From the NCBI GenBank assembly GCA_947497945.1, contig CANMIP010000008.1, forward strand, positions 124,001 through 188,000: 64,000 nucleotides of DNA. The letters are read 5' to 3'. Made by a program: the position numbers and the translations under genes. Position 1 is the stretch's first letter, and each line of letters begins with the position of its first letter. The DNA comes from an uncultured Tropicimonas sp. (GTDB lineage: Bacteria > Pseudomonadota > Alphaproteobacteria > Rhodobacterales > Rhodobacteraceae). The notes under the pieces are model-generated. The model was given only the letters and a program-made list of their open reading frames with translations. It had not been told where the DNA came from and did no database searches. Shown piece by piece: positions 32,880 through 45,188 of the stretch.

Positions 32880-34961
32880 TCAGCCGATCCGGAAGGCCGG
32901 CGTGTCGCTTGGATGATCCAGCAGGTCTCTGAGCTGCTCGTCGAGCTGCATCATCGTGACCGACATCCCGACCATGTCCAGAGAGGTGCAGTAATGCCCC
33001 GCCCAGCTCCGGGCTACGGAAATGCCCCGCGCCTTGAGACGCTGCCGCACGCGTCGACCGACGATGTAGAGCTCCATCAACGGCGTCGAACCAAGCGAGT
33101 TCAGCAAAAGCGCGACTTCGTCTCCACGCGCCGGATCCATCTCCGACAGGATCCTGTCGACCACCAGGTCGGCCGTGTCATCGGCCGTTTCCACGCTCTG
33201 GCGCAGCACGCCAGGCTCGCCGTGAACGCCAACCCCCACCTCCATCTCGCCTTCGCCCAGCATGAAGAGCGGGCGGCGCGTCTCCGGCAGCGAACAGGAT
33301 TCCAGCGCCACGCCGACCGTGAAGGTCCGCCTGTTGGCCTTCCGCGCCAGCAACTCGACCTGGGACAGCGGCATCATCCTGTCACAGGCAGCGCCTGCGA
33401 CCTTGAACACGAACAGATTCCCGGCAACGCCCCTGCGTCCGGAGCGATCTTCCGCCGCCGAGGAGGCAATGTCGTCGGTCGTCACGACGGTGCTGACCTC
33501 GATCCCCTCCATCTGCGCCATTTCCGCCGCCATCTCGAAATTCATCACGTCGCCGGAATAGTTTCCGAACAGGTGCAGCACGCCCGCGCCCCGGTTCACT
33601 GCGCGCGTGCAGTCGAAAATCGGGCCGGGCGGCGGCGACGCGAAGACATTGCCGATCGCGACGGCATCGGCCATCCCGCGCCCGACATAGCCGAGAAAGC
33701 AGGGGTCGTGCCCCGAGCCACCACCGATGACCAGCCCGACCTTGCCCTCGCGCGGGCCGTTGCGCGCGATCAGGGCACGGTTCGAGTCCCGCACGGGACG
33801 CAGGAATGCGGCGTGCTCGGCAACGGCGCCCTCCAGGGCTTCATCGACGGCATCTTCCGGCGTGTTCAGGAATTTCTTGACCGAACTGCGCGCCGGAAGC
33901 GCCGTTCCCGTCTCCGGGACCGGGGTCGCGGCGGCGCGTGCCGGCTGGATCTCGCGGCCATCGGCACTGAGAATGCCGGCGCCGGTCGCGGCATCGGTGA
34001 TCAGGACATTGACGAATCCGCCCCGCAACGCGGCGAGAATTGCCGGAACCTTGTCGATTCCGGAGGCGATCGCGATACGCTGCGGCGTCGCCGCGATCTG
34101 CTCAAGCGAGATCCCGATGATCCGACCGTCCAGCGGGCCATCGATCCTGCGCCCCATATCGTCGATATAGTGGCCGGCAATGGCGCCGACGGCACCGGAA
34201 TAGGCATCGCGGAATTTCGGGGTGTCGTTCAGGAAACCGGAGCTGTAGAGCGTCGAATTCGGTCTGAGGGAGGCGATCCCGAAGACGATCCGGTTCAGCT
34301 CCTCCAGGCTGGCGAGCTGCTCTTGCACCGGGGTCTCCTGCACGAGCATATCCCGCAATTCCCTGCGCGACACGATGGCCGGGGCGGAGATCGGGATGCA
34401 TTCGGCCCGGATCGCTGTGGCCATGGCGGTCGCGCAGGCCGCGGGCGTGTAGGGCACATGGGCGCTGGTCGAACCGGTCGCCTGCACGACGCGCACATCC
34501 TGCAACCCGTCCACGGAGAGCCGTTCGGCGGCAGCCAGCACCGAGCGCCCCCAGCCCACGCCGATCGTGTCGCCGGGTTTGATGATGGAGCGCAGCGCCT
34601 GCGCGCCGCCGCTTCCCAGGCTCTCGAACGGGCTGCGCCCCCCGCCCTCGCCGGGAATGACGAGGCAATCCTTGAGACCGAAATGCTCCTGCAGCGCCTT
34701 CGCGATGGTGAGCGAGCGCAGCTTTTCCGTCTTGATGGCGATATTGACGATGCCGCGTTCCCGGGCATCGGCGAGATAGGAGATCACGGAGGCGCGCGAG
34801 ACACCGATGATGCGCGCGATGTCGCTCTGCGTCAGCCCCTCCTCGTAATAGAGCCAGCTGGCCCAGAGCAACAGGTCGTCGCCGAAGCGGAGCGGAACCC
34901 CGCCCTCGGAACGCGCCGACCCGACCGCAGCGGCCGGTCCGGTTCCCGCTTTCGCAGCCAT
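32880..34961 (-). CDS. SorC-type regulator fused to a DhaK kinase subunit
   Basis: A 693-residue fusion. Residues 1-70 carry a helix-turn-helix (LTQSDIARIIGVSRASVISY) and residues 75-340 a SorC sugar-phosphate sensor domain (GDTIGVGWGRSVLAA). From about residue 365 to the end is a full DhaK domain. The three residues needed by DhaK are kept: the His of GGGSGHDP (about 418), the Asp of GNYSGD (about 471) and the covalent-binding His of GVHGEPG (about 580). The chain may both bind DNA and hold or phosphorylate a keto-sugar through a DhaL partner. Its start overlaps the upstream dhaL stop by one base. This architecture exists elsewhere in databases, to my recollection, but its working is little described. 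Confidence 0.9.
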   Translation of the reverse strand: MAAKAGTGPAAAVGSARSEGGVPLRFGDDLLLWASWLYYEEGLTQSDIARIIGVSRASVISYLADARERGIVNIAIKTEKLRSLTIAKALQEHFGLKDCLVIPGEGGGRSPFESLGSGGAQALRSIIKPGDTIGVGWGRSVLAAAERLSVDGLQDVRVVQATGSTSAHVPYTPAACATAMATAIRAECIPISAPAIVSRRELRDMLVQETPVQEQLASLEELNRIVFGIASLRPNSTLYSSGFLNDTPKFRDAYSGAVGAIAGHYIDDMGRRIDGPLDGRIIGISLEQIAATPQRIAIASGIDKVPAILAALRGGFVNVLITDAATGAGILSADGREIQPARAAATPVPETGTALPARSSVKKFLNTPEDAVDEALEGAVAEHAAFLRPVRDSNRALIARNGPREGKVGLVIGGGSGHDPCFLGYVGRGMADAVAIGNVFASPPPGPIFDCTRAVNRGAGVLHLFGNYSGDVMNFEMAAEMAQMEGIEVSTVVTTDDIASSAAEDRSGRRGVAGNLFVFKVAGAACDRMMPLSQVELLARKANRRTFTVGVALESCSLPETRRPLFMLGEGEMEVGVGVHGEPGVLRQSVETADDTADLVVDRILSEMDPARGDEVALLLNSLGSTPLMELYIVGRRVRQRLKARGISVARSWAGHYCTSLDMVGMSVTMMQLDEQLRDLLDHPSDTPAFRIG

Positions 34962-35611
34962 CAGCCGAGCCTCTGGGCGAGGATATCGGAGAAGCTGTCA
35001 ATTATGATCGCGGCGGAGGCGGCGCCGGGATCGACATGGCCGATGCTGCGCTCGCCAAGCCGCGCCGCGCGCCCCTTGGACGCGATCATGCTCCTGGTGG
35101 CTTCTGTCGCGTGCCCGGCCACGGTCTTGACCTCGGCCAGGGTTTCGCCGAGCGGCGCACCCTTCGCACGGGCGGCCTTGACCGCCTGCCCGACCGGCAG
35201 CCAGACATCCATCATCGTCTTGTCCCCGGCGACCGCCTTGCCACGGCTTCCGATCCCGTCACCAAGCGCGACCAGGAGCATCGGCGCCTCCTCAGCGGGC
35301 AGCGACACCCGACCTTCCGCATAGGCGCCCGCCCGCAGAAGCCCCGAGGCATAGAGCGGACCGGTCGTGGCGCCGACGGAATCGAGGAAGCTGCCAGCGC
35401 AGAGCGCGAAGAGCGTTGTCAGGTCGCTCGACCGGGGATCGACCTCGCCAAGCGCACGGACAATCGCCGCGAAACCACGCACCATCGTGGTGCCGTGATC
35501 CCCGTCACCGATCTCGCCGTCGAGCTGTCCCAGATGTTCCGAAGCGCTCGCGAGGCGGGCCGAAGCCTCGCGCAGCACTGCCATGATGTCGTCAACGCCT
35601 ACTTCCGCCAT
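34961..35611 (-). CDS. DhaL nucleotide-binding subunit, second copy
   Basis: A 216-residue DhaL. The magnesium-ADP aspartates are D31, D36 and D38 in DGEIGDGDHG, the same numbering as in E. coli DhaL plus one, which supports the start at 35611; an ATG at 35653 just after the upstream stop is possible. GATTGPLYASG and AAIIIDSF are the other family segments. It donates phosphate to a DhaK-bound keto-sugar. It is coupled to the SorC-DhaK gene and may serve that fusion. Confidence 0.9.
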   Translation of the reverse strand: MAEVGVDDIMAVLREASARLASASEHLGQLDGEIGDGDHGTTMVRGFAAIVRALGEVDPRSSDLTTLFALCAGSFLDSVGATTGPLYASGLLRAGAYAEGRVSLPAEEAPMLLVALGDGIGSRGKAVAGDKTMMDVWLPVGQAVKAARAKGAPLGETLAEVKTVAGHATEATRSMIASKGRAARLGERSIGHVDPGAASAAIIIDSFSDILAQRLG

Positions 35612-35656
35612 GCGCCCATGTAGACCCGACAGTATTGGCGAGAGCAAGCGCATTCA

Positions 35657-36298
35657 TCATCCGTCCAGGCGGCGTTTCACTCCCTCGGCCAGGGTCCCGA
35701 GGATCAGGCTGCAGGAGGTCGCGCCGGCGTCGAGAACGCCGCGGGAGCGCTCGCCCAGACGGGACGCGCGCCCCACCTTCGCGATCATGTCGATGGTGGA
35801 ATCCCGTCCCGCCTCGGCCGCCGCGCGCATCGCGTCCAGCGCCTCTGCCATGGGCTTTCCGTCCCCGATGGCGGATCTGTAGGCGTCCAGGGCGGGCGCA
35901 TAGGCATCGAGCAGCGTCTTGTCGCCAACGTCCGCCGAGCCGATATCCTTCACCTCGTCGAGGCCGTTCTGCAACATGTCCCCGAACAGGACCGCGTCGA
36001 TCTCCCAGGCCTCCTCGATGGCTTCGGCCATGCCGGAAAACATCATGCCGTAAAGCGGCCCCATCGAACCGCCGATCTCGCTCATGAGCACGTCGGAAAG
36101 CACAGACATCGCCTCGTCGAGGCTTTCGGTGCCGTCGAGCTTCTCGGCCGTGCGCCCGAACCCCTTGGCCATGTTCACGCCATGGTCGCCATCGCCGATC
36201 TTGCCGTCGATCTCCGAGAGATAGGCCTTGTTCGCGACGATCACCCGCGCGATCTCCGCAACAATCCCGCCCGCGTCCGCATTCGAAATCCGCTCCAT
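35657..36298 (-). CDS. DhaL nucleotide-binding subunit, first copy
   Basis: A 213-residue DhaL with D31, D36 and D38 in DGKIGDGDHG, GGSMGPLYGMMF, and a C-terminal GVLDAGATSCSLIL segment. Its start overlaps the dhaK stop by one base (TGATG), so it is most likely the partner of that DhaK. No DhaM phosphotransfer gene is present in the window, so the phosphate may come directly from ATP. Confidence 0.92.
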   Translation of the reverse strand: MERISNADAGGIVAEIARVIVANKAYLSEIDGKIGDGDHGVNMAKGFGRTAEKLDGTESLDEAMSVLSDVLMSEIGGSMGPLYGMMFSGMAEAIEEAWEIDAVLFGDMLQNGLDEVKDIGSADVGDKTLLDAYAPALDAYRSAIGDGKPMAEALDAMRAAAEAGRDSTIDMIAKVGRASRLGERSRGVLDAGATSCSLILGTLAEGVKRRLDG

Positions 36299-37302
36299 CA
36301 GCCCCTCCAGTTAAAGCCGGGGGCTTCGGCATCGACGTCGAGCAGCCCCTTGAGTTCTTCGTCCAGCGCCATGACCGTCAGGGTCGCGCCGACCATTTCC
36401 AGCGACGTGAAATAGTTGCCGACAAAGGCGCGGTACACTTTCAGCCCACGCGCCGCCATCTGGCTCTCCATCCGGTCATACAGCACGTAGAGCTCGTCCA
36501 CCGGCGTCGCGCCGAGACCGGACACCAGCACGGCCAGTTCCGTGCCTTCCGGCAAGTCATGGTCGTCGAGCACGATCTGTGTCATCTCGTCGGCGATCTC
36601 GTCGGCCGTTTTCAGCGCCTCGACGCGGGTTCCCGGTTCGCCGTGATGGCCGATACCGACCTCCATCTTGCCCGGTTCGATCTCGAAATTCGGATGGCCG
36701 ACGGCCGGCAGCGTGCAGGGGCCGAGGCCCACGCCGACAGACCGGCAGGCATCGATGGCCTTCTGCGCGGCGGCCTGGACCTCCTCCAGCGTCGCGCCTT
36801 CCGACGCCTTGGCGCCGCCGATCTTCCACATGAAGATCTCGCCGGCCACGCCGCGCCGTTTCGCGCGCTCTTCGGGCGGGGCGGAGCAGACATCGTCATT
36901 GGCCACCACCGTGGCGACGGGGATCTTGTCCTTCTTCGCCATTTTCGAGGCCATCTTCACGTTCATGTTGTCGCCAGCATAGTTACCATAGAGCACCGCC
37001 ACGCCCGCGCCGCCATCGGCGGCCTTGATCGCGTCGTGGAAGCTCTTCGCGGTCGGCGAGGAGAACAGCTCTCCCACCGCGACCGCGTCCACCATGTTGC
37101 GCCCGGTATAGCCGATGAAGGCCGGCTCATGGCCCGAGCCGCCCCCGGTCACGATGCCGACGCGCCCTTCGGTGCCGGCCTGCCGGCTGACCACGACGCG
37201 GGCGTTGTCCGGGTCGAGGCGCACCAGGTCGTCATGCGCCTTGACGAATCCACGGACCGTCTCGTCGACGATATCGTCGGGATTGTTGATGAACCGCTGC
37301 AT
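36298..37302 (-). CDS. Dihydroxyacetone kinase-like subunit DhaK
   Basis: A 334-residue DhaK. H58 (GGGSGHEP), D111 (GNYAGD) and the covalent-binding H220 (GIGHHGEPG) match E. coli DhaK H56, D109 and H218, with the same spacing. It binds a short keto-sugar as a hemiaminal for phosphorylation by DhaL. Related DAK kinases also act on L- or D-erythrulose, so dihydroxyacetone is not the only candidate. It lies after the ABC importer genes and before two dhaL genes. The start at 37302 follows AGGAGCG. Confidence 0.93.
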   Translation of the reverse strand: MQRFINNPDDIVDETVRGFVKAHDDLVRLDPDNARVVVSRQAGTEGRVGIVTGGGSGHEPAFIGYTGRNMVDAVAVGELFSSPTAKSFHDAIKAADGGAGVAVLYGNYAGDNMNVKMASKMAKKDKIPVATVVANDDVCSAPPEERAKRRGVAGEIFMWKIGGAKASEGATLEEVQAAAQKAIDACRSVGVGLGPCTLPAVGHPNFEIEPGKMEVGIGHHGEPGTRVEALKTADEIADEMTQIVLDDHDLPEGTELAVLVSGLGATPVDELYVLYDRMESQMAARGLKVYRAFVGNYFTSLEMVGATLTVMALDEELKGLLDVDAEAPGFNWRG

Positions 37303-37383: not shown

Positions 37384-38412
37384 TCACTTTTTTTCCGTCA
37401 GCGTGAAGAACAGCCCGGCGAAGAGGATGAACCCTCCGAGGATCGCCGTCTGCCAGGTCGAGGGGATGCCGACCAGCACGAGCACGTTGTTGACCAGCGT
37501 GATCAGCAGGACCCCCAGCATCGTGCCGCCGACCGTTCCCGCGCCCCCGGTGATCCGCGCCCCGCCCAGCACGACGGCGGCGATCACCGCAAGCTCGCTG
37601 CCCGCGAGGTCGAACGGGTTTGCCAGCCGGTTGGCCGAGACATGCAGGATCCCCGCGATCCCTGCGAGCATTCCGGCGAAGGAAAAGACGAAAAGCTGCA
37701 CCCGAGGAACACGGAAGCCGAGCCGCTCGGCGATCTCCGGCTTGCCGCCAACAGCATAGATGGCCCGGCCGATCAGGGTCCGGTTGAGGATCACCCAGGT
37801 GACGCAGGCCGCGACAACCAGGATCAGCACATAGGCGGGCAGCTTCACCTCGAATTCCGAACTGTTGGTGATGGTCATCAGGTTGACCTGGCCGAACGCG
37901 TCCATGCTGACGGGAATGTTCATGAAGAGCGACGTGCCAATGAAGGTCAGCACGATGCCCCGGAAGGCATATTGGGTGCCGATGGTGACGATCAGCGCCG
38001 GCGCTTTCAGCCAGTTGACCAGCATTCCGTTGAGCATGCCGCAAAGCGTTCCGCCGGCAGCGCCCATGACGAGGATCGGCAGGATGCCGAGATCGGGGGC
38101 GTAGTTCACCACGAATTTGGTCACCGAATACATCACCAGCGCGGCGATGGAGGCGAAGGAGACCTCCAGCCCGCCCGCGGCCAGCACGGTCAGCACGCCG
38201 AGCGCGAAGAGGCCGCGCACGACCGAGGCGCGCAGGATGTCGAAGAGGTTCGCCACCTGCCAGAAGGAGGGATTGATTGCGCCGACCACGAGGCAGACGA
38301 GGCAGATCAGCAGCACCGGGAAGGCGATGGGGTTGCGCGCCAGCCATTCGATGGCCTGGGTGAAACGGTTTTCGCGGTCACGCGATGCGGTGCCGAAGGT
38401 GGTATCCGTCAT
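37384..38412 (-). CDS. ABC sugar permease (RbsC/LsrC-D type), second copy
   Basis: A 342-residue polytopic permease of the ribose/AI-2 class. Helices run from about residue 35 to the end, with a coupling region GFRVPRVQLFVFSFAGMLAG and the conserved GGARITGGAGTVGGTMLGVL. Its start overlaps the ATPase stop by four bases (ATGA). It pairs with the other permease of the same operon (41183-42190) to form a heterodimeric channel. Confidence 0.92.
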   Translation of the reverse strand: MTDTTFGTASRDRENRFTQAIEWLARNPIAFPVLLICLVCLVVGAINPSFWQVANLFDILRASVVRGLFALGVLTVLAAGGLEVSFASIAALVMYSVTKFVVNYAPDLGILPILVMGAAGGTLCGMLNGMLVNWLKAPALIVTIGTQYAFRGIVLTFIGTSLFMNIPVSMDAFGQVNLMTITNSSEFEVKLPAYVLILVVAACVTWVILNRTLIGRAIYAVGGKPEIAERLGFRVPRVQLFVFSFAGMLAGIAGILHVSANRLANPFDLAGSELAVIAAVVLGGARITGGAGTVGGTMLGVLLITLVNNVLVLVGIPSTWQTAILGGFILFAGLFFTLTEKK

Positions 38413-40022
38413 GCCTGCGCTCCCTCGCTTGCGTTGAGCTCATCGCCCTTGAGGCTCGCGCCCATTTCGACATAGAGCCGATCCTGCGTGATCTCGTCGG
38501 CCGGCACGACGGCCTTGATCCGTCCCTTCTGCATCACCGCGATCCGGTCGCAATTCTGCAGCAGTTCCGGCAGGTCGTCGCTGATGATCAGCACGCCCAT
38601 GCCGGCCTCCGCCTGGGCCTGGATGATGCGATAGATCGTGTCCTTGGAGCCGACATCGACGCCCACGGTCGGCCCGTGCAGGATCAGCACCTGTGGCGCC
38701 GTGGCCAGCCAGCGGCCGATCAGCACCCGCTGCTGGTTGCCGCCCGAGAGCGACTTGACCGGGGCGCTGACATCCGGCGCGACGATCTGCAACTCGCGGC
38801 TCATGCGCTCGGCCTCTTCCACCGCGCGGCGCTTGTCGAGCAGGCCGAAACGGTTGCGCAGCCGGTCGAGAATGCCCATCACCGTGTTGTCGAGGATCGG
38901 TTTTTCCAGGAACAGCCCCTCGGTCAGCCGGTCTTCGGGCACGTAGCCGATCCCGGCCTGCGAGGCGTCATTCGGCACTGCGAGATGCAGCGCCTTGCCC
39001 GCCATCGTGATCGCGCCCGTATCGGCGGGCGCCACGCCGGCCAGCGCCTTGGCCAGCTCGTTGCGCCCCGAATCCAGCAGGCCGGTCACGCCGAGGATCT
39101 CGCCGCGCGCCAGCGTCAGGTCGACATCGCGGAAGCCGCCCCGCCGCCCCAGTCCACGGACCTCCAGCAGCGGCGTTTGCGCCGCCCGCGCCTCCCGGTA
39201 GCGGCCCTCTTCCAGTTCGCGCCCGGTCATGAGGAAACCCAGCCGGGCCTTGGAAATCTCGCCGATATCGCAATCGGCAACCATCTCGCCGTCGCGCATG
39301 ACCAGCGCGCGGCCGCCGATCGCCTTGCACTCGTCGAGCTTGTGGGTGACGAAAAGCACCGCAACACCCTCGCGCTGAAGCTTTCGGACCACGGAGATCA
39401 GGTTCTCGACCTCGAAGCGGGTCAACGCGGTGGTCGGCTCGTCCATGATCACGAAGCGCGCCTTGCCGGCGATGGCGCGGGCGATGGCGACAAGCTGCCG
39501 GGTCGCGATGGGCAGCCGGGAGACCTCGGTCTTGCGGAATTTCGCATCCGTGGGCAGCTCGACCGCTTCCAGCGCCTTGCGCGCCGTCCGCCGCAACTGC
39601 CCCGGCTTCAGCCAGCGGAACAGCCGGCCATTCGACTGCACGAGCTGCTGGCTCAGCCCGATATTCTCGGCCACGCTCAGGTTCGGAAGCAGGGAGAGAT
39701 CCTGGTAGACGGTCTCGATCCCGGCGGCCAGGGCGCGGATCGGATCGAATTCCTGCTGTGCGGTCCCGTCGATCAGCAATTGCCCCTCGCTCTGGGGATG
39801 GGCGCCGGAGATCACCTTGATCAGGGTGCTCTTGCCGCAGCCATTTTCGCCGAGCAGGTGATAGATCTGCCCGGGCTCGATCTTCATGTCGACTCCGCGC
39901 AGCGCATGCACGCCGCCGAACCGCTTGTGCAGGTTGCGCACTTCGAGGAAGGGCGCCTGCGCCTCGGACGCCGGGAACTCCACGACGTTGTCTTGTGCTT
40001 CCTGTGTTTCCGAGCCTGCCAT
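38409..40022 (-). CDS. Sugar ABC transporter ATPase with two nucleotide-binding domains
   Basis: A 537-residue RbsA/LsrA-type subunit. The first domain has Walker A GENGCGKST, signature LPIATRQLVAIARAI and Walker B FVIMDEPTTALT. The second has a degenerate Walker A (GLLDSGRNE), signature LSGGNQQRVLIGRW and VLILHGPTVGVD, where the usual DEPT is replaced by HGPT. Residues 1-20 are acidic and extra. A degenerate second site is normal for this class. It serves the two permeases and receptor of this operon. Confidence 0.93.
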   Translation of the reverse strand: MAGSETQEAQDNVVEFPASEAQAPFLEVRNLHKRFGGVHALRGVDMKIEPGQIYHLLGENGCGKSTLIKVISGAHPQSEGQLLIDGTAQQEFDPIRALAAGIETVYQDLSLLPNLSVAENIGLSQQLVQSNGRLFRWLKPGQLRRTARKALEAVELPTDAKFRKTEVSRLPIATRQLVAIARAIAGKARFVIMDEPTTALTRFEVENLISVVRKLQREGVAVLFVTHKLDECKAIGGRALVMRDGEMVADCDIGEISKARLGFLMTGRELEEGRYREARAAQTPLLEVRGLGRRGGFRDVDLTLARGEILGVTGLLDSGRNELAKALAGVAPADTGAITMAGKALHLAVPNDASQAGIGYVPEDRLTEGLFLEKPILDNTVMGILDRLRNRFGLLDKRRAVEEAERMSRELQIVAPDVSAPVKSLSGGNQQRVLIGRWLATAPQVLILHGPTVGVDVGSKDTIYRIIQAQAEAGMGVLIISDDLPELLQNCDRIAVMQKGRIKAVVPADEITQDRLYVEMGASLKGDELNASEGAQA

Positions 40023-40101: not shown

Positions 40102-41100
40102 CTAGAACGGGTATTCCTTGTAATTGGCGGCATCGACATCGACCCAGGCCTGGCCGCGCACGATGATGCCTTCGCCCGGTCCGGCGGAGACCTTGACGTT
40201 GTTGTAGCCCTGAACACCGAGATCCATGCCGTCCTTGATCTCTTCGCCCATCACCGTCATTTTCGTCAGGATATTCATGACATAGCCGGCATCGAGCGGA
40301 TCCCAGAAGGCGATGGAGTCAACCGCGCCCGTCTCGAGATAGGGGCCGGTATCCTTCGGCAGGCCAAGCCCGATCACGCAGGTCCGATCCTCGAGCCCGG
40401 CTTCCTCGACCGCGCGACCGATGCCGATCACGTCGATGGCGGAGCCGCCCTGGAAGCCCTTGATGTCCGGATAGGTACGCAGGATTTCCTTGGCGATCTC
40501 ATAGGCACGGTTGGCGTCGTTGAAGCTCTCGTTCTTCGGCGAGACCAGCTCCATCCCCGGGAACTTGGCGGCATATTCCTCGCCACCATCGGCCCATTGC
40601 ACATGGGTCAGCGAACCGAGCGAGCCGACGAAGGAGGTCCACTGGCCTTTTTCGCCCATGCATTCCACGATCTGCTCGGCAAAGTGGGCGCCGAATTCGT
40701 GGTTGTCGAAGGCTTCCATGTCGACCTGCGTGTTCTGCAGGTTGTCGGCCTCATGCGTGGTGATGACGATGCCGCGCTTCATGGCACGGCGCAGGACGCC
40801 TTCAAGTGCAGAGGGGTCCATCGGCACGATGGTGATGGCATCGACGTCCTGGGCGATCAGGTCCTGGATGATTGCCGTCTGCTGGGCGGCATCCGCCTTG
40901 GCCGGGCCGACCTGCCGGGCGGTGATCCCGTCCGTGTCGGCGCCATACTTGTCCACGCCCTCTTCCATGCGGGTGAACCAGTTTTCGCCGGTCACCTTGA
41001 CGACCGTGACAATCTCCTTGTCAGCGGCCGCGGCCGGAAGACCGATGCAGACCATGGCAAGTGCAGAGACCCCCGCCAGCAGCAGCTTCGAATGTCCCAT
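40102..41100 (-). CDS. Sugar ABC transporter substrate-binding protein (RhaS/LsrB-like)
   Basis: A 332-residue periplasmic receptor with signal peptide (KLLLAGVSALAMVCIGLPAA). The type I sugar-binding fold is visible: VTVVKVTGENWFTRMEEGVD, IIQDLIAQDVDAITIVPMDP, GIVITTHEAD and FQGGSAIDVIG. It belongs with the LsrB/RhaS group, which binds AI-2, rhamnose or small polyols. The LsrB ligand residues near the C-terminal domain do not seem to be kept, so AI-2 is not assured. The start at 41100 is preferred over 41154, which would precede the signal peptide with 18 charged residues. Confidence 0.92.
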   Translation of the reverse strand: MGHSKLLLAGVSALAMVCIGLPAAAADKEIVTVVKVTGENWFTRMEEGVDKYGADTDGITARQVGPAKADAAQQTAIIQDLIAQDVDAITIVPMDPSALEGVLRRAMKRGIVITTHEADNLQNTQVDMEAFDNHEFGAHFAEQIVECMGEKGQWTSFVGSLGSLTHVQWADGGEEYAAKFPGMELVSPKNESFNDANRAYEIAKEILRTYPDIKGFQGGSAIDVIGIGRAVEEAGLEDRTCVIGLGLPKDTGPYLETGAVDSIAFWDPLDAGYVMNILTKMTVMGEEIKDGMDLGVQGYNNVKVSAGPGEGIIVRGQAWVDVDAANYKEYPF

Positions 41101-41182
41101 AACGTCTATCCTCCTCAGAGTTCTGCCCACGAATGAATTCTGGCAGGGGCGCAAGGGGCGCCACCCCGGCCTCGTCTCCCGG

Positions 41183-42190
41183 TCAGGCCCTCCCTGGTCG
41201 GACCGGTGTCCGAAAACGCAGATACATGCTCAGATCGACCTTCGACGCCGCGAGGAACAGGAGCAGCAGCAGCCCCCAGGCGCAGTCACGGAAGAAGTTC
41301 GACAGGTGCATGAAGTTGAACAGGCTCGACATGAGCTGCAGCGCGCAGGCCGAGATCACGACGCAGATGACACGCCCATAGCCGCCCTCGGGGCGCACCC
41401 CGGCCATGACGGCGATCAGGATGGCGACCATCACGTAAGAGGTACCGTAGTCCCATTTCACCGAAGATGTGCGCGCGGCGATGATGATTCCGGCCACCGA
41501 GGCCAGCATGCCGGCGATGGTGTAGGTGATGAAATACATCCGCCGCACCGGGATGCCGGCATAGCGGGCGGCGACGTCGTTGCTGCCCAGCAGGAACAGC
41601 CGCATGCCGTATTTCGTGTAGCGCAGGACGATGGCCAGCGCGAAGGCGATGCCGAGGAAGAGCGCGAAGCTGATCGGCACCCCCATGACCGGCAGGTTGG
41701 CGAAATCGTCCAGCGGCGGGATATAGCCCAGCCGCAGCGCCGAACCGCCCGTCAGCCCCACGGCGACGCCGGTGAACAGCATCTGCGTCCCCAGGGTAGC
41801 GATGATCGGCGTCAGGCCGGCATAGCCCACCAGCGTTCCGTTGATCGCCCCGCCGAGAATGCCGACAACGATCGAGATCGCGGCAAAGACCCAGCAATAG
41901 AGCATCGGGGCATCGGTCGCGGTGGCAAATTGCGGGGCGAGGTTGAAGGCGATCACGCCTGACAGGTTCGCCAGCGCGATCCCGGAGAGGTCGATCCCGC
42001 CGCGCCCGGCAGCCATCGCCAGCATGACGCCGAGCGCCAGCAGGCCGAGTTCGGAAACCTGGGTCGCCATGGATTGCATGCTGTACAGGCCGACGAATTT
42101 GGGGCCGACAAGGAACAGGGACGCCACGATTACCACCGCATTCACCAGGGCCAGGAAACCAAGCTGCCCGTCATAGAATTTCGAAGACAT
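41183..42190 (-). CDS. ABC sugar permease (RbsC/LsrC-D type), first copy
   Basis: A 335-residue polytopic permease and first gene of the operon. GGIDLSGIALANLSGVIAFN and IIATLGTQMLFTGVAVGL are typical, and the coupling region is FLLGSNDVAARYAGIPVRRM. The order permease, receptor, ATPase, permease is followed directly by the DhaK/DhaL genes. All eight genes from 42190 to 32880 point the same way, with overlaps or short gaps. Confidence 0.92.
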   Translation of the reverse strand: MSSKFYDGQLGFLALVNAVVIVASLFLVGPKFVGLYSMQSMATQVSELGLLALGVMLAMAAGRGGIDLSGIALANLSGVIAFNLAPQFATATDAPMLYCWVFAAISIVVGILGGAINGTLVGYAGLTPIIATLGTQMLFTGVAVGLTGGSALRLGYIPPLDDFANLPVMGVPISFALFLGIAFALAIVLRYTKYGMRLFLLGSNDVAARYAGIPVRRMYFITYTIAGMLASVAGIIIAARTSSVKWDYGTSYVMVAILIAVMAGVRPEGGYGRVICVVISACALQLMSSLFNFMHLSNFFRDCAWGLLLLLFLAASKVDLSMYLRFRTPVRPGRA

Positions 42191-42811
42191 CTCTCCCCCT
42201 CGGCATTCCCGGAATCACGCGAGGTCGGGCGCGGCGCCACCTCGGCATAATGCATACGCTAGAATCGCCTTTTACATATGTCAACAGCAAGTAGACAATT
42301 GATCTATCCGCCTCACATGCTCCCCTGGCGCACGGGCCGAGCGCATTCAGAAAACAGCCCCCTCAAGGGCCGCAAAATCCGAATGCAGACCCCGAAAGGG
42401 TCTGCAAGACCCCAGGCATGCAACCCTCCGCGACAGAAACTCCGACGTAAACCATTTAAATTCAAGCCACTGTAAAGAATTGAAACGCTGCCGCATCAAA
42501 AGTCATCATGCAATTGACAAAAGTACGAGCGCTCTCTAAAGTCCGGTCCAAATGCGCTTGCGGCCCGATGCGTCGCCAACCGGACGCATGAACGGGATCA
42601 CGGAACGAATGCTTCCAGAGGCTTCCACTGCACATCCGAAAGGCGAAAGCCTCAATAAGATATATTTGCGCCTCCGCTTTATGGGCGGTTGCGCCGGCTC
42701 GACGACCTCATCCGGACGCCGGGCAAACATCGTTCTTCGGCACAACCCCGGCAACAGAAAATGCCGGGCGGGTCGGTGACGATCTGGACGAAATGACAGG
42801 AGGCTTTAGAT
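42191..42811. promoter_or_regulatory. Divergent control region with a TTnACATATGTnAA palindrome
   Basis: This 621-base region separates the importer/kinase operon from the TIM-barrel gene and holds no gene. It is distinctly AT-rich between about 42240 and 42680. A 14-base palindrome TTTACATATGTCAA lies at 42271-42284, about 80 bases before the permease start. SorC-type regulators often bind palindromes with an ATAT core, so this is a candidate site for the SorC-DhaK protein. The ribosome site of the rightward gene (AGGAGG) is at its right edge. Confidence 0.5.
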
Positions 42812-43744
42812 ATGTCGAAATACAGATGGACCCGCGATAACTGGCCAATCGCTTGCGCAATGATCCCCTTCGCACCCACGCTGCCCGATGGCTCGCTGGT
42901 GCAGGATGCGTCGGCGGAGGTCTGGGACGAGGCGCTGGCGCAGGTGGCCGACGAGGGCTTCACCGAGCTTGACCCGACCGACAGCTGGATGCGGGTGGCC
43001 GATCTCGAACCCTCCCGGCTCAACGAGTTCAAGGCGGTGGTCAAGCAGAACGGCCTGACGATCCCCTCCATGTCGACCTCGCGCAAATGCGTGATCGACC
43101 CCGAGGTGGGCGACGAGATGCTGGCCTATTGCCACCGCTTTCTCGACACCGCCGCCGATCTCGGCGCGGAGGAAGTGGCGTTCGGCTTCTTCGGCCCCTT
43201 CACCGAGGCACAGACCAAGGAACTGTGGTTCTGGCTGGCCGAGGGTTACACCAATCCCGACGATCCGGCGACATGGAAGCTGGCTGTCGAGCGCATTCGG
43301 GAACTGGCAGACCACGCCAAGGAAGTCGGCATCACCATCGCCATGGAGATGTATGAGGACACCTATATCGGCACGCCCGAGAGCGCCGTACGCTTCGTGA
43401 CGGACGTGGATCGCGACAATGTCGGCATCTGCGCCGATATCGGCAACCTCGTGCGCCTGCATCGCCCGATGCCGAAATGGAACGAGATGCTGGCCCAGGT
43501 CGCGCCCTTCATGAAGTACTGGCACGTCAAGAACTACATCCGCGACGAGGACCCGGCGACCGGCACATACTCCTCCGCGCCGGTGCCGATCGAGTTCGGT
43601 ATCATCAACTACCGTGAGGCGATCCGGATGGCGCTGGCCGAGGGCTTTGCCAGCCCGATCCTTCTGGAGAGCTATGGCGGCGACGGCCTGTCGGTTTGCG
43701 GCAAGAACCTCCAGACCCTGCGTCGCATTCTGCCGCGCGCCTGA
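42812..43744 (+). CDS. Sugar phosphate isomerase/epimerase-like TIM-barrel protein
   Basis: A 310-residue protein of the AP-endonuclease-2/xylose-isomerase-like barrel family. Likely metal ligands lie in AMEMYEDTYIGT (Glu), GICADIGNLVRLHRP (Asp and His), YWHVKNYIRD (His) and ILLESYGGDG (Glu). Members isomerise or epimerise keto-sugars, their phosphates or hydroxypyruvate. The ATG follows ACAGGAGG. It diverges from the importer/kinase operon and probably converts the substrate or its phosphate. Confidence 0.87.
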   Translation: MSKYRWTRDNWPIACAMIPFAPTLPDGSLVQDASAEVWDEALAQVADEGFTELDPTDSWMRVADLEPSRLNEFKAVVKQNGLTIPSMSTSRKCVIDPEVGDEMLAYCHRFLDTAADLGAEEVAFGFFGPFTEAQTKELWFWLAEGYTNPDDPATWKLAVERIRELADHAKEVGITIAMEMYEDTYIGTPESAVRFVTDVDRDNVGICADIGNLVRLHRPMPKWNEMLAQVAPFMKYWHVKNYIRDEDPATGTYSSAPVPIEFGIINYREAIRMALAEGFASPILLESYGGDGLSVCGKNLQTLRRILPRA

Positions 43745-44084: not shown

Positions 44085-44690
44085 AAAATTCTTAGGCTCT
44101 GGACCCATTGATTTGGTTGCGGTCGATGCACCGGGCTGAGTCACGCTCCTGAACTTCAAGCGCGGGATGAGCAACTTGGTCTGGCCGAGCGCCGAGCAGA
44201 TGGCTCGGTTGAAGCCGAGTTTTCCCAAGAGCGATGGCAAGCCACGTGTCGATGATCGGCATGTGTTGAGCGGGATTATCTTCATCAATGGCAACGGCTT
44301 GAAAGGGTCGGATGCTCCAAGGGAGTACGGCCCGCTTTGGACCTTCGACAACCGCTGAAAACGATGGAGCGACAAGGGCGTGTTTGCCCGGATCATGGAC
44401 GGGTTGGCCGCCGATTGGATGATCGCTGATCGCGGATACGATGCAGACCGGTTCCGGGATGGCTTGAAAGACAAGGCGAGACGGCCCTACATCCCAGGCA
44501 GGAAGTCTCGCGACACGCCGGGGCGATACGACACGCGCAGATACAAGCGTCGCAACCGTATCGAGATCATGTTCGTTCGGGTGAAGGATTGGCGTCGCGT
44601 AGCAACACGCACCGACAGATGTCCGAAGGTATTCCTGTCGGCCATCTTTCTGACGTCAACGCTTATGGGGCCAAATGGGGCAATTTGATA
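44085..44690 (+). mobile_element. IS5-family (IS427-like) insertion sequence remnant
   Basis: A broken IS5-type element. The left end carries TTAGGCTCTGGACCCATT, a typical end sequence of this group; a matching right end is not clearly kept. The transposase frame starts at 44167 (MSNLVWPSAEQMARLKPSFP). At 44356-44358 it has a TGA where relatives have Trp (NR-stop-KRWSDKGVFARIM). A large internal piece is missing between MDGLAA and DWMIADRGYDADRFRD, which removes the first catalytic Asp region. The end (VFLSAIFLTSTL) is typical. It cannot code an active transposase. Confidence 0.88.
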
Positions 44691-44694
44691 AGAG

Positions 44695-44852
44695 AGTGTT
44701 TCTGGCTCATCGTCACCACAGGGAGTGGGACATGAGACAGCCAACCAAGAGCCCCGGCGAGAAGATCGTCAAGGATATCAAGCGGGCCACTCGCAGGCAG
44801 TATACGTCGGAAGAGAAGATCCGGATCGTCCTCGATGGTTTGCGGGGCGACC
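44695..44852 (+). mobile_element. IS3-family OrfA fragment
   Basis: From ATG 44732 the frame reads MRQPTKSPGEKIVKDIKRAT, then YTSEEKIRIVLDGLRG, the N-terminus of an IS3-group OrfA. Relatives continue with a second helix-turn-helix half, but here the match ends at about 44852 inside a foreign gene. Only about 40 codons of OrfA and no OrfB remain. Confidence 0.85.
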
Positions 44853-45188
44853 CGACCCAACGTTGCGCCAGCTTTCGCCACCGTCTTCGGACACGGCCAA
44901 CCCGCCGCCTTCCAGCGCGGTGATCACGCGGTCCTGACGCTCCGGGTGGCCGGTCAATGCTGTGAGTCGCCTGTCCGGCCCGGTGCTGTCACGCCATGTG
45001 GCACCGCCGTCCTCGCTCCGCAGAAGGCTGTTTCCGGCGGCAAGGACGGTGCTGCCTGCGAAGGCGCGTGCGATCGTTCGAGGGGCCGTTGTCGCGAAGA
45101 GCGGATGTGCTGTCGCGATAATCAAGGCTCCCGTGGCGGCACCGAGAAAGGTACGCCGGGAAATCCCGCCTGTCTTTGGTATGGTCAT
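44853..45188 (-). pseudogene. BNR-repeat Tat-secreted protein, cut by the IS3 fragment
   Basis: The N-terminal 110 or so residues remain. A Tat signal (GISRRTFLGAATGALIIATA) is followed by two sialidase-type BNR/Asp-box repeats (LLRSEDGGATW and LAVSEDGGESW). The reading frame then runs into the IS3 fragment and loses similarity. Intact relatives are several hundred residues long and form beta-propellers. The start at 45188 follows AAAAGGG. It is the last gene in the direction of the two-component operon, so it probably belonged to the same metal-response unit. Confidence 0.8.

Follow-up and report, generated by a model that had tools for sequence, protein, structure and literature searches.

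The window analysed here comprises 64,000 nucleotides from an uncultured Tropicimonas sp. of the order Rhodobacterales (assembly GCA_947497945.1, contig CANMIP010000008.1, positions 124,001 to 188,000). It contains an eight-gene run on the minus strand, starting at 42190, which encodes in this order a permease, a sugar-binding protein, an ATPase, a second permease, DhaK1, DhaL1, DhaL2 and a SorC-DhaK fusion, in which a dihydroxyacetone kinase subunit is joined to a regulator of the SorC family. The initial annotation had described an operon at 32880-37302 with two DhaK and two DhaL subunits, one DhaK being fused to a SorC regulator, and with short overlaps joining the genes. The four open reading frames (ORFs) and their Pfam domains bear out this gene content. 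The run is longer, however, as these genes form its 3' end behind four sugar ATP-binding cassette (ABC) transporter genes. One-base overlaps are present at two of the three junctions (dhaK1/dhaL1 and dhaL2/fusion), while dhaL1 and dhaL2 lie 3 bases apart. The fusion and the kinase genes have the following features.

32880-34961, minus strand: SorC-DhaK fusion of 693 aa, a single ORF with the Pfam domains Sugar-bind and Dak1 and 95 full-length relatives.
34740-34874, minus strand: helix-turn-helix (HTH) region of the fusion, about residues 30-74, from the phmmer alignment to LsrR, DeoR and SorC; model helices at 30-39, 45-52 and 56-68.
33969-34715, minus strand: SorC-type sugar-phosphate-binding domain, residues 83-331 (PF04198, 197.9 bits, cut-off 27; Foldseek matches to SorC, LsrR and DeoR structures).
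33897-33947, minus strand: linker of the fusion, residues 339-355, predicted to be flexible (AlphaFold predicted local distance difference test, pLDDT, below 50 between two confident halves).
32883-33881, minus strand: DhaK half of the fusion, residues 361-693 (PF02733; Foldseek).
33708-33710, minus strand: codon of H418, equivalent to E. coli DhaK H56, kept in 96/96 fusions.
33549-33551, minus strand: codon of D471, equivalent to E. coli DhaK D109, kept in 96/96 fusions.
33222-33224, minus strand: codon of H580, equivalent to E. coli DhaK H218, the covalent substrate site, kept in 96/96 fusions.
34961-35653, minus strand: dhaL2, probable partner of the fusion (PF02734, 148 bits; TIGR02365 above cut-off), adjoining the fusion in 95/95 loci.
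35657-36298, minus strand: dhaL1, probable partner of DhaK1 (PF02734, 169 bits), adjoining dhaK1 in 93/93 loci having dhaK1.
36298-37302, minus strand: dhaK1, a stand-alone DhaK (PF02733, 371.4 bits) in a clade apart from the fused DhaK.

The PF04198 domain and an N-terminal HTH aligned with LsrR, DeoR and SorC place the fusion in the SorC/DeoR family, which includes SorC, LsrR, DeoR and CggR. Pfam gives only sub-threshold hits for the HTH, a region that was placed by the alignment. The N-terminal half aligns over nearly its full length with SorC, LsrR and DeoR, LsrR being the nearest among solved structures, in agreement with the earlier assignment to a family of sugar-phosphate binders. Both DhaK parts belong to the Dak1 superfamily (PF02733: fusion 389.6 bits, DhaK1 371.4 bits; cut-off 31.4). 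DhaL2 and DhaL1 exceed the cut-off of Dak2 (27 bits) as well as that of the DhaL equivalog TIGR02365, with 167.7 and 169.1 bits (cut-off 138.3). An AlphaFold model of the fusion, made with 41 sequences, has a mean pLDDT of 80.1 and a predicted template modelling score (pTM) of 0.51. Both halves of this model match known folds, with Foldseek target TM values of 0.86-0.94 to E. coli and L. lactis DhaK and of about 0.7-0.9 to SorC, DeoR and LsrR chains.

The fusion is neither a sequencing artefact nor a chance product, because it is one open frame and the same fusion occurs in 95 other loci (numbered with the prefix L). These come from 13 genomes of the source's order, S. meliloti 1021 pSymB, Thalassospira marina and the best 80 loci of a scan of named genomes. 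Two contigs, judged by their length, are present twice (L037/L120 and L035/L130) and two S. meliloti strains are included (L055, L107), while L057, a third strain, lies outside the 95 and was scanned for the operator later with L144 and L145. The fusion is intact in all 95 loci (681-712 aa), which were fetched as its relatives and are thus a biased sample for the absence of split versions. A full-length match is found in 14 of 390 genomes of the order (own genome included), the other 13 at 55-60% identity. In a phylum-wide set, 5 of 398 genomes have such a match at E ≤1e-100, three in the source's family (own genome included) and two elsewhere in the class. The best 80 loci from named genomes, which are not a census, are all full-length; judging by genus, we take 78 of them to be alphaproteobacterial, and two are labelled only 'bacterium' or 'Proteobacteria'. 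Among plasmid records, 313 have a match and 102 hold one covering at least 80% of the query.

The architecture itself is already on record as the RefSeq product name 'bifunctional sugar-binding transcriptional regulator/dihydroxyacetone kinase subunit DhaK'. Fusions so named in Thalassospira marina, S. meliloti ml66, Shinella HZN7 and Paracoccus seriniphilus have the same architecture and similar gene neighbours. No study of the fusion's function, partner or operator was found in the open-licence literature, subscription journals being mostly outside the scope of the search.

Comparison of these loci suggests two complete, separately paired kinases, DhaK1:DhaL1 and SorC-DhaK:DhaL2, a pairing that is new here. 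In all 95 loci dhaL2 adjoins the fusion, before it in 29 and after it in 68; two loci have a dhaL2 on both sides. The dhaK1-dhaL1 pair is equally constant, and in six loci forms one ORF. Either DhaL had been considered for the fusion in the initial annotation; gene order in the relatives pairs it with DhaL2, and DhaK1 with DhaL1. The four kinase genes are contiguous by the script's rule in 81 loci, and five more miss it only because of an additional dhaL-like gene (L066, L080, L082), an additional SorC gene (L094) or a gap of 464 bp (L134). Seven loci are rearranged (L036, L067, L105, L124, L127, L128, L133), and these divide into the fusion with dhaL2 on the one hand and dhaK1 with dhaL1 on the other, the latter often with a short-chain dehydrogenase/reductase (SDR) and transporter genes. 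Beyond the window, transporter and SDR assignments are by tblastn similarity unless Pfam or NCBIfam is named. Only L089 and L104 lack dhaK1.

The two DhaK parts of the window are 44% identical to each other. In a DhaK tree sampling 33 of 96 fused and 31 of 94 DhaK1 sequences, built without 13 repeat fusion rows from small loci and without the second E. coli DhaK copy, all 33 fused sequences form one clade (support 0.98) and all 31 DhaK1 sequences another (support 1.0). Five stand-alone DhaK genes join the fused clade, with a joint support of 0.99. Three of them lie in L048-L050, each beside a dhaL2-like gene; an RpiB gene is near all three and a triosephosphate isomerase (TPI) gene near two, and L048 and L049 also have SorC as a separate gene. 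A single fusion event from neighbouring SorC and DhaK genes would be the simplest history. In L089 (8254-9901) and L104 (8158-9790), dhaK1-dhaL1 is replaced by a stand-alone DhaK of this sister group and a dhaL2-like gene, and fused and unfused close DhaK relatives there share one gene run.

Both DhaK domains were said to retain the substrate His, the Asp and the covalent-binding His, which is confirmed by alignment with H56, D109 and H218 of E. coli DhaK: the window has H58, D111 and H220 in DhaK1, and H418, D471 and H580 in the fusion. Across the relatives these positions are kept in 96/96 fusions each, and in 94/94, 94/94 and 93/93 DhaK1 sequences (one gapped). Equivalents of E. coli DhaL D30, D35 and D37 are present in 94/95, 95/95 and 94/95 ungapped DhaL2 and in 92/92 ungapped DhaL1 sequences. 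Near the active site, every ungapped DhaK1 has N110, V113, K/R114 and H217, whereas the fused DhaK has V/L/T/I, F, mostly E/D, and I/V; these differences suggest that the two act on different substrates. As DhaM (TIGR02364) has no match in the own genome, with control matches in 3/14 genomes including E. coli, ATP rather than phosphate from the phosphotransferase system (PTS) is expected to drive the kinases. The fused DhaK is closer to DhaK (3ct4, 9.4e-76) than to the DhaQ type (2iu4, 2.5e-48). Relatives are 52-58% identical to the window in SorC, 59-63% in the fused DhaK and 40-47% in DhaL2, and 61-84% in DhaK1 and 57-71% in DhaL1.

The initial annotation had named the region of 42.2-42.8 kb for DNA contact, and a candidate operator lies inside it.

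42271-42305, minus strand: candidate operator, boxes 42292-42305 (AGATCAATTGTCTA) and 42271-42284 (TTGACATATGTAAA), 21 bp apart; top matrix site of the 64-kb window.

In its first form, the signal was a dyad, TTGACA-N23-TGTCAA, over-represented upstream of the first transporter gene (62/92 promoters at up to 2 mismatches, against a mean of 0.9 in 20 shuffles). At 3 mismatches, the dyad gave 6 hits in the window against 9.3 expected by chance and missed the operator site. It resolves into two 14-bp palindromes (TTGACAWWTGTCRA) whose starts are 21 bp apart, i.e. two helical turns. At this spacing 78/91 promoters score at least 21 of 28, against a mean of 0.07 in 30 shuffles; at any other spacing from 14 to 39 at most 43 promoters are found. 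The boxes are separated by seven bases without conservation. The promoter tables have 92 entries, one of which was too short and was dropped. Such paired palindromes would fit a SorC-type tetramer on operator DNA.

A matrix trained on 59 of 65 Rhizobiales promoters was then applied elsewhere. In the window, the candidate operator scores 9.5, followed by a next site at -5.3, and 20 shuffled windows reach at most 5.5. When up to 3 mismatches are allowed, a pattern fitted to this site matches only once in the 5.79 Mb of the own genome. The other test loci number 29, two repeats included, and in 28 of these the top site is upstream of a cluster gene; with the training loci added, this holds for 89 of all 95. 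The six not counted are L059, L089, L104 and L109 (top site 15-41, not assignable to a cluster gene by the rule), one with a contig edge inside dhaK1 and one whose upstream region reads N. None of sixteen control stretches that lack the fusion, including E. coli dha, scores above -3.3; fourteen hold a DhaK gene, and since four are sub-stretches of others they represent twelve places. In three plasmid loci that are not in the tables, the top site lies upstream of the cluster, scoring 25.6 in Paracoccus (next -8.4), 30.1 in Shinella HZN7 and 34.7 in S. meliloti ml66.

The units that the site precedes vary: transporter B with the SDR, transporter A (the window's type) or dhaK1 itself (L044). In L089 it heads a run with an SBP_bac_1/MalK-type transporter and a PfkB kinase but no dhaK1, and L104 has the same layout by similarity. 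What these loci with differing first units have in common is the fusion, so the operator appears to follow the fusion. In five of the seven rearranged loci (L036, L067, L105, L127, L133), the site precedes the SDR, transporter or dhaK1 unit and not the separate fusion gene, and the fusion would therefore control the genes of the other kinase there. The site of L128 has the dhaK1 unit on one side and, on the other, RpiB and further on the fusion, which are encoded on the opposite strand; it could serve both sides. Extra boxes are seen in L035 (16596-16651, two overlapping pair matches 21 bp apart) and in L109 (7646-7724, two separate pairs). By eye, the transporter and SDR genes of L109 (7718-8081) seem to be short remnants, the SDR match covering 126 bases; a strong operator site is retained, as are the kinases and the fusion.

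Taken together, we consider it probable that the fusion is a trigger enzyme, in which a kinase subunit and a repressor share one chain that senses its own phosphorylated product, within a ketose-uptake operon with two ketose kinases. The operon would import a small ketose, to be handled by two distinct kinases, DhaK1 with DhaL1 and SorC-DhaK with DhaL2. Without ligand, the HTH of the fusion would sit, as a tetramer, on the two 14-bp palindromes before the transporter genes and keep the operon repressed. Incoming ketose would be held on H580 of the DhaK half and phosphorylated with DhaL2 and ATP, after which the phospho-ketose would reach the SorC site of the same assembly and the DNA would be released. 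SorC proteins are usually tetramers and DhaK proteins dimers, which is compatible, as four chains give two DhaK dimers. The studied members of the SorC family bind sugar phosphates, upon which the tetramer leaves the operator DNA. Of this model, the architecture, its conservation, the gene pairs, the intact catalytic residues and the occurrence and specificity of the operator motif are observed; we infer that the fusion is the operator-binding protein, that it acts as a repressor, that its kinase half is active, that the phosphorylated product is the effector and that the substrate is a tetrulose. Repression is proposed because one half-site resembles a -35 hexamer and members of the SorC family often repress.

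The initial annotation had proposed that the fusion binds DNA, free substrate by its DhaK half and phosphorylated product by its SorC half, and that the single chain may thus read flux through the kinase to which it belongs. This proposal is supported in part, namely in the conserved fusion, the catalytic residues, the SorC family and a candidate operator in the named region; that the chain would bind substrate and product simultaneously, that such binding would alter its affinity for DNA and that the halves would communicate are possibilities. In its full form the idea is possible but rather doubtful: the SorC domain would answer the product of its own tethered kinase, DNA binding would report turnover (substrate, DhaL2-ATP, product) instead of a metabolite pool, and DhaL2 docking would gate the tetramer's grip on DNA. 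In split loci, a kinase subunit would then switch on a second, different kinase.

Alternatively, the DhaK half might bind ketose as a DhaQ-like sensor without being a kinase, with DhaL2 as a co-regulator and DhaK1:DhaL1 as the only enzyme. There are precedents in DhaQ of L. lactis, a DhaK paralogue of the same fold that serves regulation (PDB titles), and in E. coli DhaK, which binds DhaR (title of 4lrx); the SorC, fused DhaK and DhaL2 of relatives also diverge more from those of the window than DhaK1 and DhaL1 do. We nevertheless regard this as unlikely, since the catalytic residues are kept in 96/96 fusions and the nucleotide-site Asp in at least 94/95 DhaL2, the fused DhaK matches DhaK structures better than DhaQ, and the genes closest to it in the tree encode stand-alone DhaK and lie beside their own dhaL. 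It also seems improbable that regulator and kinase subunit were joined neutrally, for dosage or translation and with no cross-talk. The linker, predicted to be disordered, and the relatives L048 and L049, with separate SorC and DhaK genes close together, agree with such an origin; yet one fused clade is kept across several orders with no split in 95 loci, in a sample biased by having been fetched as fusions.

Another regulator might own the paired palindromes, the fusion merely co-occurring with that regulon. Binding by the fusion is a prediction, and TTGACA also resembles a -35 hexamer, but a -35 box does not account for a pair of palindromes whose spacing is fixed at 21 bp and whose spacer varies. 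As the site tracks the fusion across several transporter types, the sixteen control stretches (twelve places) score at most -3.3, and the fitted pattern has its single match in the genome here, we give this explanation little credence. The nearness of the SorC half to LsrR, together with a binding protein of S. meliloti ml66 annotated as binding autoinducer 2 (AI-2), brings to mind uptake of this quorum signal by an Lsr-type system. Such a role is hardly credible: only 2/6 LsrB ligand residues are kept in ten aligned type-A binding proteins (the letters of the six agree with E. coli LsrB), and the window's binding protein scores 103.6 against the NCBIfam LsrB cut-off of 384.

Several observations weigh against the trigger-enzyme interpretation. 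Neither DhaK part reaches the cut-off of the DhaK equivalog TIGR02363 (406.25 bits; fusion 367.9, DhaK1 350.7), so neither is filed as a dihydroxyacetone kinase proper. The low pTM means that the relative placement of the fusion's domains is not given by the model. DeoR carries a Schiff-base lysine, for which no counterpart is seen by eye at the aligned position in the SorC half of the fusion. Regarding the operator, the window's site is a weak match, with a score of 9.5 where most Rhizobiales sites exceed 25; scores are lower still in L040 and L042 (-3.8 and 1.1). Residue 60 of the recognition helix is N in 92/96 fusions, the exceptions with I or V being the window, L058, L040 and L042; a link of this change to the weak scores is no more than suggested, as scores just as low occur in several N loci of this group. 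In L124, where the fusion belongs to the transporter A unit, the best site (4.5) precedes this unit, and the dhaK1 unit is preceded by no more than a partial match. The cross-clade test was not fully blind, the seed word and the 21-bp spacing having been found on all promoters including the window's, and promoters of related genomes are not independent. Finally, no match to SDR, RpiB or TPI was found in the window, and among the relatives RpiB-like genes (15/95 loci; one match is partial and two represent one and the same contig) and TPI (3/95) are present in a minority only.

The remaining genes of the run and its divergent neighbour are listed below.

37384-38412, minus strand: ABC transporter permease 2, transporter type A (PF02653).
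38409-40022, minus strand: sugar ABC transporter ATPase (PF00005, two stretches).
40102-41154, minus strand: periplasmic sugar-binding protein, RhaS/LsrB-like (PF13407; RhaS 121 bits and LsrB 103.6 bits, each far under its cut-off).
41183-42190, minus strand: ABC transporter permease 1, first gene of the run (PF02653).
42812-43744, plus strand: xylose-isomerase-like TIM-barrel protein, divergent neighbour of uncertain membership (PF01261).

Among the relatives, the SDR adjoins dhaK1 in 82/93 loci, including all 78 with transporter B, and the one tested belongs to the GolD/DthD family by NCBIfam (367 bits, cut-off 286). Transporter A without SDR or transporter B is found in nine loci, and both transporters in four; the window is of the former kind. 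Transporter B may thus import a polyol that needs oxidation, and transporter A the ketose itself. In the own genome, contig C5 (L051) has a cluster of similar TPI and DhaK-DhaL genes beside a 64% identical copy of the window's TIM-barrel protein, and a similar RpiB gene about 12 kb beyond that cluster. The position of this copy suggests a shared pathway.

We put the chance that the substrate is a tetrulose such as erythrulose at about even; dihydroxyacetone is possible. The tetrulose proposal rests on the SDR (GolD/DthD), RpiB and TPI neighbours in relatives and on erythrulose phosphates, through which erythritol breakdown in alphaproteobacteria runs as described in PMC12780249.

To our knowledge, dihydroxyacetone kinase subunits doubling as operon regulators are known, but as separate chains. 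E. coli DhaL acts as a co-regulator for DhaR, itself a separate chain outside the SorC family, and L. lactis DhaS is a TetR-type regulator. DhaR and DhaS had both been named earlier as separate-chain regulators partnered by DhaK; this holds for DhaR, whereas the partner of DhaS is DhaQ, a DhaK paralogue. The M. smegmatis tetritol pathways use DAK-type erythrulose kinases, and we know of no SorC fusion in them. They share with the relatives' clusters a GolD/DthD-type dehydrogenase, DAK kinases and, in some loci, RpiB/TPI, while the window differs from them in that SDR, RpiB and TPI are not found in it. With E. coli DhaR/DhaK/DhaL, the likeness is that kinase subunits co-regulate their own operon (4lrx is a DhaR-DhaK complex), although that system is PTS-driven with DhaM, which was not found in the window's genome. 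With L. lactis DhaS-DhaQ, it is a DhaK-fold protein in regulation (titles of 2iu4 and 2iu6), but in separate chains, and the fused DhaK of the window resembles true DhaK more than it does DhaQ. SorC, LsrR and DeoR have the HTH and PF04198 domain in common with the fusion; their matched solved chains, of 254-346 residues, leave no room for a DhaK domain.

The fusion unites regulator and kinase in a single molecule, which several orders of Alphaproteobacteria have kept. What is new is that a partner, a history and a candidate operator are proposed for it by comparison, and that co-regulation by kinase subunits would have moved into one chain with SorC. With a candidate operator that is sharply defined, a probable partner and a sister group that is not fused, it offers a testable case of metabolic flux sensing. 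It also suggests that, in these bacteria, many genes with a dihydroxyacetone kinase annotation may have other ketoses as substrates.

Further observations concern neighbouring genes. On contig C4 of the own genome, a dhaK-dhaL pair lies directly behind a transporter 51-57% identical to that of the window (L052, 3356-9722), with a LacI-type regulator and no paired-box site. A PfkB/ribokinase-like sugar kinase is present in two fusion clusters (L145, 16919-17872; L089, 7249-8208). Beyond the TIM-barrel gene of the window, at 44380-44923, short ORFs resemble, by eye, remnants of IS5- and IS3-type transposases.

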